Part shown: positions 21,602 through 32,847 of the stretch, piece after piece
Numbering within the stretch: the stretch's first letter is position 1
Layout: each line of letters begins with the position of its first letter
Assembly: GCA_018608565.1 (NCBI GenBank)
Contig: JABAZT010000004.1
Span: 4,404-37,250, forward strand
Direction of reading: 5' to 3'
DNA from: Candidatus Altimarinota bacterium
Lineage (GTDB): Bacteria; Patescibacteriota; Gracilibacteria; UBA4473
Length of the DNA stretch: 32,847 nucleotides
Program-made: the position numbers and the translations under genes
Notes under the pieces: model-generated
Database searches by the model: none
What the model was told of the DNA's origin: nothing
What the model saw: the letters and a program-made list of their open reading frames with translations, nothing else

Positions 21602-24600
21602 TTATTGGATCAATGAGTTTATAAATCCTGATAAGGTATAGATACGAGGTACTAGTTCTGGAGCTACTGATGTACCAGACCCTGACCCACCACCCCCGTC
21701 GGGAATACAAGAACAATTACTGTCGCAGGTCTCACCACTAGAGCAATCTGAAGTTACTTCACAGCTTTCTCCAGCATCTACATTCCCATCTCCACAATAT
21801 GGAGGATCTGGATCACAAGGACCACAGGTTCCTCCACAATCTACATCCTCTTCATCTCCATCCATAGTTCCATTACTACAGGTATCCTCACAGGCCGTAC
21901 ATGATCCTCCACAATCTGTATCTTCTTCATTTCCGTTCATGGTTCCATCCGAGCAAGTCTCACAATCTCCAGAGTCATAGGTCGCTGAAGAATCATAATT
22001 ATGCGCTCCAGATGTCATACATCCCACAATTTCACAGGTATCATTTATTTCTACCTCTGGATCAGGACAAATACAAGCAGAACCATTCCCATCATCCACA
22101 AAAGGATCATTACAGGAAAGTGTACATTCATCAGTCCCCGTAATAGACATCGCTCCACTCGAACAATCTGCCGCTGTACTACACGACTCCTCTCCTTTCC
22201 CATCACTTACTGATTTTGTCCCACTGGCTGTCCCACTAGAACCAAATTCTACATCTGATTCAAATTCTATCTGAGTCCCTACTTTTGATTTACTATAGGC
22301 TTTTGGATCACCTCCAGCTTTACAGCTACAAGTTTCTCCTGACATGACTAACGGTGCTCCATTTGTACAGTTTGCATCTCCATAACAAGTTACTTTTCCA
22401 TCGGTTGAATCCTCCGTCCCAGTAGCTATTGTTTTTACATAGCCGATTGACTCTGTAATACCATACTTCAAATCTGGATATAATCTTGAAGGAACTTCCT
22501 CAGACGAACCTGTATTTTTATAACAAGGATCACAATCTTCAGGTCCCTTTTTAGTCCACCCTCCTGCATTTATCGAAGAACATTCGAATGTTGCGGTACA
22601 CTTACAGTCTCCGGCTCCTTCACAAGAATAATTTCCATTATTAAAATCATTATCATTGTCTTTTGCGCCTCCAGTCCCAATAGTTTTTGGATAAGCATTT
22701 TCGCTATTGTGAGTAAAACGCCGATGTCCATAACTATCTACCGCGGTTCCAACCGTATCGCCATCACACCCATAATTCCCTCCTCCTCCCCCATCATCAC
22801 AAAAAGGATCAACCATTGAGGATTCCCCACTACTTCCATTGGCATTTATATCGCAGCTCACCGTAAGCCAATAATCCGTACATCCAACTCTTGGTCCATA
22901 GTAGATCTTATCTGATTCTCCCGCACTCATACTTGTATTTACCGAATAATTGAATCCGGAAGTACCTCCTGTGATTAGTGGTGGAAAACTACAGTTATCC
23001 TGAATACAGACTCCATTTTGTTCTACATATCCAGGAGCACACTCCAATATACACACTCCATTCTGCTCTACATACCCTGGATCACAACCAATAACACAGA
23101 CTCCATTTTGCAGCACTGTTCCTTCTGGACATTCAATATTACAGACTTCATTAGATATTACCACGCTTCCATCTGCCTGACAGGTTAGATCCGCGGTACA
23201 GTCTCCATCTGTAGAAACAAGATCCGTCTCTGTCGCTGTAATTGGATCTATGGCTGGATAGACATAAAATCTAGATTGAGGACTTGCAAATATCCCTGGA
23301 GCACAAGCCGAACAGGTTTCGTTTTGTACTAGTAACTGTCCATTATCACAGAGTAAATCCCCTGTACATCTTCCCACGAGAAGAGGATTTCCAGAGTTAA
23401 TACTGTCTTCTCCTGTATTACTTATTCCGTCATCTAACTCTGTTGGATTGAGATAAAACTCACTTCCTGGATAGGTGTTACTTGGAGCTACCATCCCGGC
23501 TGGACATTGATCTGGTTCAGCTACGTAAATATTCCCTATACAGCTATTGGTCGCCTGTGGAGAGGTAACTAAAAACTGGACCAATCCCGGCCCACTCAAT
23601 CCATCGTATTGGATTGGATCTACTAATATACTTGTATCTGAGGAAAATACATTCACCCAATGATCTAAAGGAATCCCTGGCACTATCCCTGTATTTACTC
23701 CATTTGAGTTATTGATATTGATGGAGACTGCCTCGTTTGTTCCGGGAATAATAGGTATATACAACTGCCCCGATCCAGTCCGAGCAAAGGTAAAGTTTCC
23801 AATACCAAGTGCTTGACTCAAATTTTCCTCTGGCTGACAAAATGCAAGCTTTACTGGATTGGTATGACACCCTTGTTCTATCCCGCTTGTAACTTCGACC
23901 GTTCCTACTGGACAGACCGCCCCTGTCACTGCTCCTGCCGAGGCAGCCCAACTAGAGAGATCCAATCCCCCTGGCTTGTCACAGAGTCCTAGTTGATAGG
24001 TTCCACTTCCTCCACATGAACCACTAGAACCATCTCCGGTATGAGCCGCACTTCCCTGAGCCACAAGAGTGGCTCCTCCCGTACAAACAGGACTGGCATC
24101 CATCGCAAAATCAAAAGCTAACTCTGAACTCCAATCCACCGAACTCCAATCATCCTGACACACTCGAAGCATTACGCCCTCTGCAATACCGGTATGTTCC
24201 TCAAAATAAATAGATGTCTGTTGCGGATTACAACTTACCTCTGAAAAAGATTTCCCAACATTAAAATCTATTCCTGTAGCTCCTATATTACAATTGAAGG
24301 CAAAATCTCCCTGCGAACTTAATACCTCCGCCTCTCCCGTACAACTTCCAGTAATATCTGGAGAAGTAATTGCAAAATTAACCGTCCCTGGTGCTTGAGT
24401 TCCATCAAAATGTACTAACGGAATGTAGACCCCGGACTGTCCATCAACCACATATTCGGTATGAGAAACACTAAATCCATTTTGATTTATATTAAAGTCT
24501 ACAAATCCTTTTGAGACATTGCTCAATAATACCTCTAATCCACCATCTCCCTCTACCCCTGTAACAAAATTTGTATCTCGAATAGGACGAGGCGTCACAC

Positions 24601-26788
24601 AATTAAAATCTCCACTTCCTCTGGGATTTGTTATGGCCGCCTCCCCAGTACATGATCCAGCATTTGCTTGAGTTGAAGTGATTCCAAATGTTTTATTTCC
24701 TATTGATTCAATTCCATCATAGGTTATATCCATTTCAATTTCGGTCTCATTTCCACTCAAAACATCATTAAAATCTGCCGTAAATCCTTGCCCCCCAATA
24801 CTCAGTGTTACTCCCCCTGCTGTAGGATTTAGAATTGGAACCGTTATCTTTCCATCACTTGATGCCCCAAATTCAAATATATCAGGAGAAACTGGATTTG
24901 TTCCACAATCAAAATCAAAACCCCCTGATGAATCAGCAATTACTGCCTCTCCTGTACAAGATAAATTTCCTTCCGTAGAGGTGATTTGAAAGGTTCGTGT
25001 TCCAGCTACCCCAGTTCCATCAAACGTTATCGGAATTACCACTTCATAACTCGCTTTATTTTCTGGAACCGTCTCTGTGTGTGTAGTTGTAAACCCATTT
25101 TGACTAATCGTAAAATTAAGAGGGCCTTGTACTACATTTAGAAGTGTCACCGGGATTGCTCCAACTTTTGTTTCCCCTGTAAAGAAACTTGTAAATGAAA
25201 CTGGATTTGTCCCACAATCAAAATCAAAACCAGTAGCAACTACATTTGCTTGTGCCGTACAAGTTCCAGTCCCTTCCGAAGATGTTACATCAAACTGAAT
25301 CAACCCAGGCCCACTAGTACCATCATAAGACAATACTGGCAATGGAAGGGTTGTATCTCCTGGATTTCCTCCACTTGCCCCAATAACTGTTAATGGCTGT
25401 GTCGTAGAAAAACCATTCTGATTTATACTCACTGTTACCGAACCTGAACTGGCTCCAGTAATCGGAAAATCTAAAAAGGCCGAACTCGGGGTTCCAAATA
25501 AAAATTCTGAACGAGCGGTTGGAATTGGTGGCCCTACACAGTCAAAAGCAAATCCTCCAGTTATAGGGACAACATTAGCTCCCCCAGTACAACTCCCCGA
25601 AGCTTCAGGTGAAATAATATCAAATGAAACCAACCCACTCCCTGGAGTCCCATCAAAGGAAAACGGAAGAATGATTTCCAGCTCCCCCCCCAGCAAAAAA
25701 TGATCGTAGGTTGCCGTAAATCCATTTTGATTTACCTGAAACTTAACCCATCCTGTTTTTGCATTATGAATAGGAACGGAACCAAATCCAGCCGGATTTG
25801 AAGTTCCCGACAAAAACGAAATTGGCGTCCAAAAAGATCTATCAACACATTCAAATTCGAACTCCCCAGGAGGCGTCACAATCTCGGCCTCTCCAGTACA
25901 ACTCCCCGCCCCCGCATCAGAACTAATTGCGAATGTCTGTGTCCCGAGCTCCCCACTCCCATCATAAGATAATGGATATACAATAATCTCATCCTGTCCC
26001 TCCTCAAGTAATACCTCCTGAACTGCATAAAAGGCTCCATCCTCTATCTCAATTACAACATTCCCGGCATTCCCCGAGGTCACCGGGACGATAGGAATAG
26101 TCAATGATCGATCTGAAAAAGCTCCACGAATAAAATCCTCTGTTGGTGATGGATTTGTTGAACAGCTAAAGGTAAAAGCTCCAGGATTATTCACCTCAAT
26201 TTCTCCACACAAACCTGACCCATCACAATTTTCCCATAACACTCCATCATAACAACAATGCCTATTTCCATCTGTATTAAATACTACATCTCCAGCCTCT
26301 CCGAGAATCAATGGAAAATCAGAATCCTGATATTTCATATTTCTTGTATAGGTTGGCTCAAACGCCCCTCCTGATTGGTCATAAGTCTGCATACAACGAC
26401 AATCAAGATTAAATACTTTTTGACCATCATAGGGATTCTCTGGCCACGAAGCGTTACTTGATATGGTCTGTATTCCAGATTCGATGGCCCCCGCAGAGAT
26501 ACAATTAAGTCCGTCCTCATCACAATAATAATCAGCTCCCAGACTCCCCTGCACATCAAACTCAAGAGTACTCTCTCCTGAACTTGGGGCTTCTGTATTA
26601 ATCCCCGCTTTCCCTGTCGAAGTCACATTGAGTACCGATGAAGGACTCGCAACACTTCCATGACTAAACTGCAACATCTCCCCTGTCTCTCCAATTCGCC
26701 AATAGTCGGTTGGATATTCTGCATATACGCCAGACAAAAGAATCGATACCACCAATAATAATCCTCCAAGTAATTTATATTTTTTCAT
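21602..26788 (-). CDS. Giant secreted surface protein, head, about eight repeats and Cys-rich C-terminus
   Basis: This 1728-residue protein is the first gene of the surface operon. The signal peptide ends near SGVYA (about residue 23). The head (25-200) matches the two downstream proteins: YPTDYWRIGE, GKAGINTEAPSSG, FDVQGSLGADYYCDEDGLNC and two 'GxxVFNxD..YD' units. Six clear repeats follow at about residues 204-305, 310-406, 413-517, 521-618, 624-720 and 727-822, each with an opening F-x-F-x-C and closing GSCTGEA. Two degenerate ones lie near 828-908 and 998-1090. The rest is Cys-rich: PGYVEQNGVCI-type EGF-like units, GCMTSGAHNYDSSATYDSGDC (NYxxxAxxDxGxC type), two 'CSDGTMNGNEEDTDCGGSC' units and a Gly/Ser linker. 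It ends in a short tail IYTLSGFINSLIQ. There is no LPXTG motif. It is likely a fibre or adhesin; binding partner unknown. Confidence 0.8.
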   Translation of the reverse strand: MKKYKLLGGLLLVVSILLSGVYAEYPTDYWRIGETGEMLQFSHGSVASPSSVLNVTSTGKAGINTEAPSSGESTLEFDVQGSLGADYYCDEDGLNCISAGAIESGIQTISSNASWPENPYDGQKVFNLDCRCMQTYDQSGGAFEPTYTRNMKYQDSDFPLILGEAGDVVFNTDGNRHCCYDGVLWENCDGSGLCGEIEVNNPGAFTFSCSTNPSPTEDFIRGAFSDRSLTIPIVPVTSGNAGNVVIEIEDGAFYAVQEVLLEEGQDEIIVYPLSYDGSGELGTQTFAISSDAGAGSCTGEAEIVTPPGEFEFECVDRSFWTPISFLSGTSNPAGFGSVPIHNAKTGWVKFQVNQNGFTATYDHFLLGGELEIILPFSFDGTPGSGLVSFDIISPEASGSCTGGANVVPITGGFAFDCVGPPIPTARSEFLFGTPSSAFLDFPITGASSGSVTVSINQNGFSTTQPLTVIGASGGNPGDTTLPLPVLSYDGTSGPGLIQFDVTSSEGTGTCTAQANVVATGFDFDCGTNPVSFTSFFTGETKVGAIPVTLLNVVQGPLNFTISQNGFTTTHTETVPENKASYEVVIPITFDGTGVAGTRTFQITSTEGNLSCTGEAVIADSSGGFDFDCGTNPVSPDIFEFGASSDGKITVPILNPTAGGVTLSIGGQGFTADFNDVLSGNETEIEMDITYDGIESIGNKTFGITSTQANAGSCTGEAAITNPRGSGDFNCVTPRPIRDTNFVTGVEGDGGLEVLLSNVSKGFVDFNINQNGFSVSHTEYVVDGQSGVYIPLVHFDGTQAPGTVNFAITSPDITGSCTGEAEVLSSQGDFAFNCNIGATGIDFNVGKSFSEVSCNPQQTSIYFEEHTGIAEGVMLRVCQDDWSSVDWSSELAFDFAMDASPVCTGGATLVAQGSAAHTGDGSSGSCGGSGTYQLGLCDKPGGLDLSSWAASAGAVTGAVCPVGTVEVTSGIEQGCHTNPVKLAFCQPEENLSQALGIGNFTFARTGSGQLYIPIIPGTNEAVSININNSNGVNTGIVPGIPLDHWVNVFSSDTSILVDPIQYDGLSGPGLVQFLVTSPQATNSCIGNIYVAEPDQCPAGMVAPSNTYPGSEFYLNPTELDDGISNTGEDSINSGNPLLVGRCTGDLLCDNGQLLVQNETCSACAPGIFASPQSRFYVYPAIDPITATETDLVSTDGDCTADLTCQADGSVVISNEVCNIECPEGTVLQNGVCVIGCDPGYVEQNGVCILECAPGYVEQNGVCIQDNCSFPPLITGGTSGFNYSVNTSMSAGESDKIYYGPRVGCTDYWLTVSCDINANGSSGESSMVDPFCDDGGGGGNYGCDGDTVGTAVDSYGHRRFTHNSENAYPKTIGTGGAKDNDNDFNNGNYSCEGAGDCKCTATFECSSINAGGWTKKGPEDCDPCYKNTGSSEEVPSRLYPDLKYGITESIGYVKTIATGTEDSTDGKVTCYGDANCTNGAPLVMSGETCSCKAGGDPKAYSKSKVGTQIEFESDVEFGSSGTASGTKSVSDGKGEESCSTAADCSSGAMSITGTDECTLSCNDPFVDDGNGSACICPDPEVEINDTCEIVGCMTSGAHNYDSSATYDSGDCETCSDGTMNGNEEDTDCGGSCTACEDTCSNGTMDGDEEDVDCGGTCGPCDPDPPYCGDGNVDAGESCEVTSDCSSGETCDSNCSCIPDGGGGSGSGTSVAPELVPRIYTLSGFINSLIQ
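24323..26179 (-). repeat. Six tandem 'FDCG...SCTGEA' repeat units
   Basis: This part of the giant surface gene encodes six successive units of about 95-105 residues. The shared frame is FxFDCGTNP, then xxGKIxVPI, GxVxxxINQNGF, a TxIxIxxLxYDG stretch, GxxxFxITSxEG and GSCTGEA. Sequence identity between units is modest (core motifs only), so these are old duplications rather than recent DNA repeats. Each unit carries two conserved Cys near its ends. The same unit occurs twice in the next gene and once in the third. Confidence 0.75.
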
Positions 26789-31613: not shown

Positions 31614-31640
31614 AAAAAAAACTCCCACATAGTGTGAGAG
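31614..31640 (-). terminator. Attenuator terminator before DAHP synthase
   Basis: On the minus strand CTCTCACA (31633-31640), loop CTA and TGTGGGAG (31622-31629) form an 8-bp stem with one G-U pair, followed directly by eight T (31614-31621). It lies 42 nt upstream of the DAHP synthase ATG, inside its transcript leader, so it must be conditional. A competing partner for its 5' arm is GTGAGAG at 31681-31687. Confidence 0.85.
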
Positions 31641-31669
31641 GTCTCAAGGTCAGCATTAAAATCTTTTGC

Positions 31670-31738
31670 TTACGACCGGACTCTCACTCGTGAAGGAGCG
31701 AAATAGAAATTCCAGAAATAAAAGAAAAGGTTTTGCAT
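31670..31738 (-). CDS. Aromatic-rich leader peptide of the DAHP synthase attenuator, 22 aa
   Basis: This short ORF runs from ATG at 31736-31738 to TAA at 31670-31672. It encodes MQNLFFYFWNFYFAPSR and then VRVRS. Residues 5-13 contain five Phe, two Tyr and one Trp, interrupted only by Asn10. Such density is the hallmark of regulatory leader peptides (pheA, pheST and trp leaders), where the ribosome stalls when the charged tRNA is scarce. The end of the ORF overlaps the antiterminator strand (31681-31687). The ATG lies 11 nt after a -10 box, so it should be translated from an almost leaderless 5' end. Confidence 0.85.
   Translation of the reverse strand: MQNLFFYFWNFYFAPSRVRVRS
31681..31687 (-). 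promoter_or_regulatory. Antiterminator segment of the attenuator
   Basis: GTGAGAG (minus strand) is the exact complement of CTCTCAC at 31634-31640, the 5' arm of the terminator. It can also pair weakly with TTCAC just upstream (31688-31693) as a protective hairpin. A ribosome stalled on the aromatic codons (31700-31726) would cover the upstream partner and leave GTGAGAG free to block the terminator. A ribosome reaching the stop codon would cover GTGAGAG and let the terminator form. Confidence 0.7.
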
Positions 31739-31749
31739 TTACAAATCCA

Positions 31750-31777
31750 ACGATAAGAAGAATCATTCCGCTGTCAA
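31750..31777 (-). promoter_or_regulatory. Promoter of the leader peptide and DAHP synthase
   Basis: On the minus strand a perfect TTGACA (31772-31777), a 16-bp spacer and TATCGT (31750-31755) lie 11 nt before the leader peptide ATG. The predicted transcript leader before the DAHP synthase ATG is about 170 nt. Confidence 0.55.
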
Positions 31778-31816: not shown

Positions 31817-32847
31817 ATGATAGAAAAAGCCATCCAAGTTATTACTGAGTTTAAAGCTATTGAAGCTGAATTGGCTAACCCTGAAACTTATCAGGATCAG
31901 GCAAAGTCTGTAAAGCTGTCTCAACAGCGAAAGGCTTTTGAGCCTAAGTTTGAGGCAGCCAAAATTTATAAACAATACTACAATCAGAAGACTGATGCTG
32001 AAGAAATACTTAAATCAGAAAAGGATTCAGAGATGCTTGAAATGGGAAAAATGGAACTTGATGAAGCCAAGGCAAATCTTCCAGTGGCTGAGGAGAATCT
32101 TAAAACAGCTCTTATTCCTAAGGATCCTAATGACGATAAACCCTGTATCGTAGAAATACGAGCTGGAGTTGGAGGAGATGAATCTTGTCTTTTTGCTGAA
32201 GAGCTTCAACGAATGGTTCTTCGATACGCAGAACAACAGGAATTTAAATGTGAACTGATGAGTGATAGTATAAATGAAGCGGGAGGTATAAAAGAATGTA
32301 TCTTTCGAGTTGACGGTTTTGGAGCCTATGGACAGCTAAAATTTGAGGCTGGAGTCCATAGAGTTCAACGAATTCCTGATACGGAATCTCAAGGTCGAGT
32401 GCATACATCTGCTGTATCTATAGTCGTAATGCCTGAGGTGGAAGATGCAGAGATAGAGATAAATCCAAATGATGTACGAGTTGATGTTTTTAGATCGAGT
32501 GGATGTGGAGGACAGTCGGTCAATACGACAGATTCTGCTGTACGTCTTACTTATGTTCCTACTGGAATGGTAGTAACGTGTCAGGATGAAAAATCACAGC
32601 ATAAGAACAAAGATAAAGCTTTTAAAGTACTGAGAGCTCGTCTGGCTGCTATTGAGGCTGAGAAGAAGCAAGCCGCACTAGGAGAGAAACGTCTGGCTTC
32701 TATCGGTTCAGGAGATCGTTCTGATAAGATCCGAACCTATAACTTTCCACAAGATCGTGTTACGGATCATCGTATCGGACAGAACTTTTCTAATATTCCA
32801 TCTATCATGGATGGAAATATTGATAAGATCGTGGAAGCGCTTGCGGT
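31817..32847 (+). CDS. prfA: Peptide chain release factor 1 (partial, runs off the window)
   Basis: RF1 reads UAA and UAG stop codons and triggers peptide release. The frame is open from ATG 31817 to the window edge (343 codons; RF1 is usually about 355-360 residues, so only the end is missing). The domain layout is normal: N-terminal helical domain (about 1-95), [19 protein letters not shown] (112-130), the codon-recognition tripeptide P-x-T as PDT (187-189) in [16 protein letters not shown], and the catalytic GGQ (231-233) in [26 protein letters not shown] replaces the common GAGGQHVN; variants at these flanks are known in other phyla. UGA, read by RF2, is also used as a stop in this window, so an RF2 gene is expected elsewhere. 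Confidence 0.95.

Follow-up and report, generated by a model that had tools for sequence, protein, structure and literature searches.

How the entry into aromatic amino acid synthesis is controlled is the question raised by the minus strand of a 32,847-nt stretch of DNA (the window), in which a gene for DAHP synthase is preceded by a short ORF crowded with aromatic codons and by an intrinsic terminator. The DNA comes from a Patescibacteria genome, and members of this phylum are widely viewed as streamlined, almost none being culturable and their gene regulation being practically unknown. We regard the arrangement as, with very high probability, a ribosome-mediated leader-peptide transcription attenuator of the pheA/trp type that controls DAHP synthase. 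This reading, first proposed in an initial annotation of the DNA, is supported by the anatomy of the region, by conserved compensatory pairing and by the in-silico consistency of three states of the leader.

Anatomy of the leader and its genomic setting

The promoter, the 22-codon ORF, its FFYFWNFYF run, the GTGAGAG complementarity, the terminator with its T8 tract and the DAHP synthase gene were all recovered exactly where the initial annotation had placed them (Table 1). The two promoter hexamers give 10 of 12 matches, and GTGAGAG (31687-31681) is the exact complement of CTCTCAC (31640-31634), both on the minus strand. As expected of an attenuator, a short ORF rich in codons for end products of the pathway lies 5' of the gene, an intrinsic terminator stands between the leader ORF and the structural gene (also in relatives), and the antiterminator uses the terminator 5' arm, directly 3' of the regulatory codons.

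Table 1. Features of the putative attenuator and adjoining genes, in window positions
Feature	Positions	Strand	Basis or remark
-35 hexamer TTGACA	31777-31772	minus	sequence; recurs in relatives
-10 hexamer TATCGT	31755-31750	minus	16 nt from -35
Leader peptide ORF MQNLFFYFWNFYFAPSRVRVRS	31738-31670	minus	22 codons plus TAA; equivalents in relatives
Aromatic run FFYFWNFYF, putative regulatory codons 5-13	31726-31700	minus	8 of 9 codons aromatic
Arm 1 TTTCGCTC	31696-31703	minus	overlaps last Phe codon; partner arm 2
Arm 2 GAGTGAGAG	31681-31689	minus	near leader ORF end; partner arm 1 or arm 3 (antiterminator)
Arm 3 CTCTCAC, terminator 5' arm	31634-31640	minus	partner arm 2 or arm 4
Arm 4 GTGGGAG plus T8 tract, intrinsic terminator	31614-31628	minus	sequence
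Terminator hairpin CTCTCACA-CTA-TGTGGGAG	31640-31622	minus	8 pairs, one U-G; loop 3 nt
T8 after terminator stem	31621-31614	minus	sequence
DAHP synthase, type I, AroFGH family, 347 aa, putatively regulated gene	31571-30528	minus	TIGR00034, PF00793
prfA (peptide chain release factor 1), divergent neighbour	31817-32847	plus	PCRF 222 bits, RF-1 142 bits

Transcription is predicted to start near 31743. With 11 nt between the -10 hexamer and the leader ATG, the 5' UTR would be about 5 nt long, too short to hold a Shine-Dalgarno site. Judging from this distance, the leader mRNA is probably leaderless. A similar spacing recurs in relatives: the distance from -10 to ATG is 7-12 nt in most of those using genetic code 11, and by eye also in L134, L135 and L141, while TTGAC(A/T/C) with a 16-17 nt spacer precedes most leaders of standard-code relatives. 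At two loci (L006, L011) the TTGAC box is in place by eye and the promoter scan put sites elsewhere. Among 190 ORFs of the window and related loci, 13 strict promoter matches were seen 5-14 nt before the ATG versus 0.8 expected, and this clustering suggests that leaderless transcripts are common in the lineage. Upstream of the divergent prfA (31817), a TTGATA/TATATT pair ends 9 nt from the ATG.

The DAHP synthase ORF scored 289 bits against TIGR00034 (cut-off 173) and 176 bits against PF00793, and it was the single match in its own genome (1.66 Mb, 98.9% complete) in a search blind to the unrelated type II enzyme. Because the neighbouring prfA, which is cut by the window end and lies outside the switch, is divergent, the terminator serves no upstream co-directional gene. 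The genome's own trpE was ruled out as an attenuated gene, since it has no Trp leader and the gene before it encodes a TrpR-type repressor (PF01371, 60.7 bits), and no leader was found upstream of the tyrA-pheA fusion; together, these two findings locate attenuation at the common first step. The repressor gene encodes 94 aa and lies between a trpS-like gene and trpE (own contig C34, L119, minus strand), and in several genomes of the same family a TrpR-like protein likewise ends directly 5' of trpE. The fusion (L116:469-2223, own contig C32) is a 585-aa protein joining prephenate dehydrogenase to a prephenate dehydratase with an ACT domain. Elsewhere in the window, a 1728-aa ORF (21602-26788, minus strand) had zero NCBIfam or Pfam matches, and its end overlaps an ORF of 442 aa that matched class D beta-lactamase only weakly.

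Predicted states of the leader transcript

The window transcript was folded with a ribosome masking 18 nt before the A-site codon and 12 nt after it, which gives equilibrium estimates. Without a ribosome, the minimum free energy structure contains the 1:2 hairpin and the terminator. In agreement with the switch initially proposed, the antiterminator (2:3) is preferred over the terminator with the A site at any of codons 5-13, and the terminator forms with the ribosome at the stop codon. From codon 14 onward arm 2 is covered, so the antiterminator is sterically blocked and the terminator alone is possible. The switch point is codon 13, the last aromatic codon, as the antiterminator is possible only with the A site at or before it. 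The preference for it peaks at 6.3 kcal/mol when the A site holds Trp codon 9. At codons 5-7 arm 1 is left uncovered and the margin over the terminator shrinks to 0.6 kcal/mol, indicating that the early Phe codons may contribute little; for stalls at these codons kinetics would decide.

In the mechanism that we propose, transcription would start about 5 nt 5' of the leader ATG and a ribosome would initiate on the leaderless 5' end. Scarce charged tRNA-Phe, tRNA-Tyr or tRNA-Trp would halt it within codons 5-13, leaving arm 2 free to pair with arm 3, so that no terminator would form and DAHP synthase would be transcribed. With plentiful charged tRNAs the ribosome would reach the stop codon and cover arm 2, upon which arms 3 and 4 would form the terminator and transcription would end near 31614. 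If no ribosome were present, 1:2 and 3:4 would form and transcription would also end. That termination actually takes place we infer from the sequence, and tight coupling of transcription and translation is implied by the mechanism.

Conservation, covariation and rival explanations

Relatives of the DAHP synthase turned up in 14 of the 20 genomes from the window's family and in 78 of the 353 from its class, with few more elsewhere in the phylum; a search at the level of the order brought up the family only. At about 70 loci the upstream region was read, leaders and terminators being picked by script and curated by eye with some resulting bias, and 33 of these loci hold an aromatic leader ORF with a terminator behind it; in about half of the class loci read, no leader was detected. 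This anatomy precedes DAHP synthase or its operon in 35 class genomes and two elsewhere in the phylum, and the resulting 37 genomes are not independent, since some share a genus (the window's own genus consists of this genome alone). Within the family, 11 of the 14 DAHP-bearing genomes have the anatomy and three (L009, L012, L014) have no leader. In these three, DAHP synthase shows promoter-like sequence right at the start codon; L012 and L014, which belong to one genus, are also without prephenate dehydratase and trpE.

Examples of leaders in relatives are MKIFAFDFFYFWFRASEQN, MQRYFYGFYFWTGSRR, MSHIFLFFWSFYFPTVSRVSA, MNSFFYFWSYFYSVQPGERS, MYNTFFFWFFPYFYTK and MAQRQSYFYGFFFTPYLAGKEPYDLK, and two more (MRQYSFFFFFRA and MLSLKKSYFFFFFFNTSLLKD) come from genomes with in-frame TGA codons in their DAHP genes. 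Many DAHP genes of the class (L082-L106) carry 10-25 such codons, that is, TGA is sense, and their leaders stop at TAA or TAG. In two class genomes (L135, MAHTFFFNSFYYFAPQRGL; L138, MQHSVNTFGYYFWNFNNVKA) leader and terminator stand before aroA of an operon of the aroA-aroK-aroQ-aroE-aroG type; a genome outside the class (L141, MKHTSAANFYFYFFGNL) has them likewise before aroA-K-Q-E-aroG, and in a second such genome (L134) MKQLRSIQNWFFFTDTFIGGKFAVN lies directly before a divergent DAHP synthase. A leader also precedes tyrA-aroG in L008 and chorismate mutase-aroG in L010 (neighbours named by eye from sequence). The putative switch travels with the pathway, to the operon that carries DAHP synthase. 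No leader was found upstream of aroA in L136, L137 and L140, nor in L139, and no comparable one at 36 loci of DAHP relatives outside the phylum (mostly rumen Firmicutes and Planctomycetes). Weak 'aromatic' ORFs outside the phylum were rejected, as they have no terminators and look like parts of coding genes (MKDLQWSYFF...).

For 33 loci, the segment that follows the aromatic run was picked, along with the terminator 5' arm, irrespective of complementarity, and the duplex energies of cognate and swapped segments were compared. Cognate arm 2:arm 3 pairs averaged -14.15 kcal/mol versus -7.90 kcal/mol for non-cognate pairs, and the observed cognate mean was reached in 0 of 20,000 permutations, with the same result (0 of 20,000) for the 11 loci of the window's family and for a thinned set of 20 loci. 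Terminator arms vary widely across loci (CTCTCAC, GCCGGC, CTTCTCTATT, CCTTCCCC, TCCAGCT and others) and cognate pairing is nevertheless kept, which indicates that both segments changed together. At two loci (L007, L013) cognate pairing was no better than that with non-cognate arms. At 27 of 28 loci arm 2 has a predicted pairing partner upstream, a weak one in some. According to the initial annotation, finding no conserved leader ORF or pairing in related genomes would have spoken against the attenuator; in fact both are kept, and the pairing with compensatory change.

A constitutive partial terminator behind a spurious, untranslated ORF, whose aromatic codons would be a by-product of U-rich sequence, is very improbable. 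Phe is readily encoded by such sequence, and the leader, taken by itself, has an ordinary folding energy (z -1.1), so the case for the attenuator is built on arrangement and conservation rather than on stability. Across 28 leaders, however, aromatic codons make up 36.5% in frame versus 13.6% and 17.4% in the other two frames, arguing that the content is no by-product of U-rich DNA; moreover, the distance between promoter and ATG is fixed and the pairing segment holds its position after the aromatic run. Among 3000 dinucleotide shuffles of the intergenic region (245 nt), there was a single case of an ATG ORF with 8 or more aromatics per 10 residues and no case of an ORF with 6 or more that had a terminator behind it. 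Similar ORFs do occur in the same DNA, but the nine others with at least 6 aromatics that the window and 29 related loci contain (292 kb of strand sequence) have no terminator after them and none reached 8.

If the ORF is translated, stalling within it is common to attenuation and to an arrest-peptide switch of the TnaC or ErmCL type, in which the nascent aromatic peptide would sense a free aromatic amino acid and stall the ribosome, and a hydrophobic aromatic peptide directly 5' of an amino acid gene would suit such a switch. An arrest peptide needs conserved sequence, though, and no conserved stall-site peptide was found among the leaders: residue order and spacing vary freely between loci and aromatic content alone is kept, which favours codon sensing and makes arrest scarcely credible. 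Terminator/antiterminator logic is also shared by a T-box, a riboswitch or a protein-binding leader acting on the same terminator, an explanation whose probability we consider negligible. Rfam covariance models run on the leader at gathering and permissive thresholds returned nothing relevant, with no family at gathering score and the best permissive matches unrelated and far below threshold, and a T-box would not fit into so short a leader, which also has no conserved non-coding element.

Amino acids probably sensed and relation to known systems

The attenuator in all likelihood senses at least Phe, and sensing of all three aromatic amino acids, Phe, Tyr and Trp, is rather probable; a leader for three amino acids would make sense if one DAHP synthase has to answer to three end products. 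All 8 genomes with trpD and trpB have a Trp codon in the leader, versus 10 of 29 others (Fisher p 0.001; G003 counted as positive despite a partial trpB match, G151 as negative with trpD and no clear trpB). Counted by genus, the figures are 6/6 versus 8/19 (p 0.017), and since all trp-positive cases belong to one family, shared ancestry may inflate the association. Two genomes of one genus show the contrast: the leader run is FFYFWSYFY in G014, which has trp genes, and FFYFFF in G013, which has none. In the window's family, a leader is present in 11 of 12 DAHP-bearing genomes with prephenate dehydratase and in 0 of 2 without it (p 0.03).

It is a serious possibility, short of being probable, that the attenuator works as described and is effectively a Phe sensor, its Tyr and Trp codons being passengers or speed tuners. 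Phe is the commonest residue (150 Phe, 54 Tyr and 17 Trp codons over 28 leaders), and the runs in L082, L083 and L095 are nearly pure Phe. A precedent points the same way: in C. glutamicum, the aroR leader with Phe-Tyr-Phe lies 5' of the DAHP synthase gene aroF (Neshat et al. 2014, cited in PMC11802643; predicted in PMC4046766), and PMC11802643 describes an effect of Phe availability and none of Tyr despite the Tyr codon. With aroR regulated by Phe only, three-amino-acid sensing in the window is something we infer. Against a pure Phe sensor stand the Trp codon of all genomes with trpD and trpB, its absence from G013, and the position of the window's Trp codon at the largest antiterminator preference. 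With a probability somewhat below even, the locus may be one case of a leaderless multi-amino-acid attenuator that extends across this Patescibacteria class and beyond, reporting Phe, Tyr and Trp to the shikimate entry enzyme; its codons would be rewritten to the synthesis remaining in each genome (the Trp codon being kept with the trp genes), and it would move with the DAHP synthase operon in standard-code and TGA-recoded genomes. The leader series offers, in codon content versus retained pathways, a direct evolutionary test of what leaders sense.

Leader-peptide attenuation is textbook knowledge in Proteobacteria and is known in Actinobacteria and Firmicutes. The leaders of E. coli pheA (pheL), pheST (pheM) and trp (trpL) resemble the leader of the window in their short ORF, in regulatory codons that are clustered and set against arms 1 and 2, in arms 1-4 and in the intrinsic terminator. 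Unlike that leader, they sense one amino acid, are led by a Shine-Dalgarno site and have other target genes. The initial annotation had put the known cases at one or two amino acids sensed, an understatement in view of the E. coli ilvGMEDA leader, which senses three. Like the leader proposed here, the ilvGMEDA and thr leaders serve several end products of a branched pathway, but with branched-chain or Thr/Ile codons and in unrelated operons. What the initial annotation missed is the precedent at a DAHP synthase gene, C. glutamicum aroR, where an aromatic-codon leader peptide likewise controls the gene via ribosome stalling. The aroR leader has Phe-Tyr-Phe without Trp and is actinobacterial, whereas that of the window is aromatic in 8 of 9 codons including Trp and belongs to Patescibacteria. 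E. coli, by contrast, places its DAHP synthase genes aroH and aroF under TyrR and TrpR (PMC11802643), and DAHP isoenzymes under these repressors contrast with the single DAHP synthase detected in the window's genome. The predicted start of the leader ORF at or near the transcript 5' end, with no Shine-Dalgarno site, would be a feature in common with Streptomyces leuL, trpL and ilvL (PMC8079986) and with mycobacterial polycysteine sORFs (Canestrari 2020, as cited in PMC13236596). These leaderless actinobacterial attenuators differ from the leader of the window in their amino acids and genes and partly work without an intrinsic terminator.

In the literature searched, which includes a minority of subscription papers, no description combining Patescibacteria, attenuation and a leader peptide was found, in line with the initial annotation, which knew of no such example. 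The attenuator is new in its phylum, codon mix and breadth; the principle is already known. A conserved attenuator would mean that this lineage regulates amino acid synthesis by translation-transcription coupling, probably on leaderless transcripts, in a form that is purely RNA-encoded and readable from the genome. As for the lineage itself, ribosomal protein uL30 was not found in the window's genome (98.9% complete), as expected of Patescibacteria, by a search whose control was positive in 13 of 14 reference genomes; together with class genomes reading TGA as sense, this fits a Gracilibacteria/Peregrinibacteria-like lineage of the Patescibacteria.

Upstream of ilvB, the family showed no Ile/Leu/Val leader. 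For histidine, attenuation is probably in use there too, judging from loci of two genomes at which a His-rich leader ORF, followed by a terminator with a complementary segment, precedes a hisG-like gene: MKYINFASQHHHSEKHSLRFLM at L160:1348-1466 (plus strand) and MNFQISALQHHHRELHSRRFLM at L161 (minus strand; reverse-complement positions about 1351-1467). Their like build suggests that this mode of attenuation may be general in the family. A possible GTG-started His-rich leader (...LFGAHHHTNT) was seen at L156.
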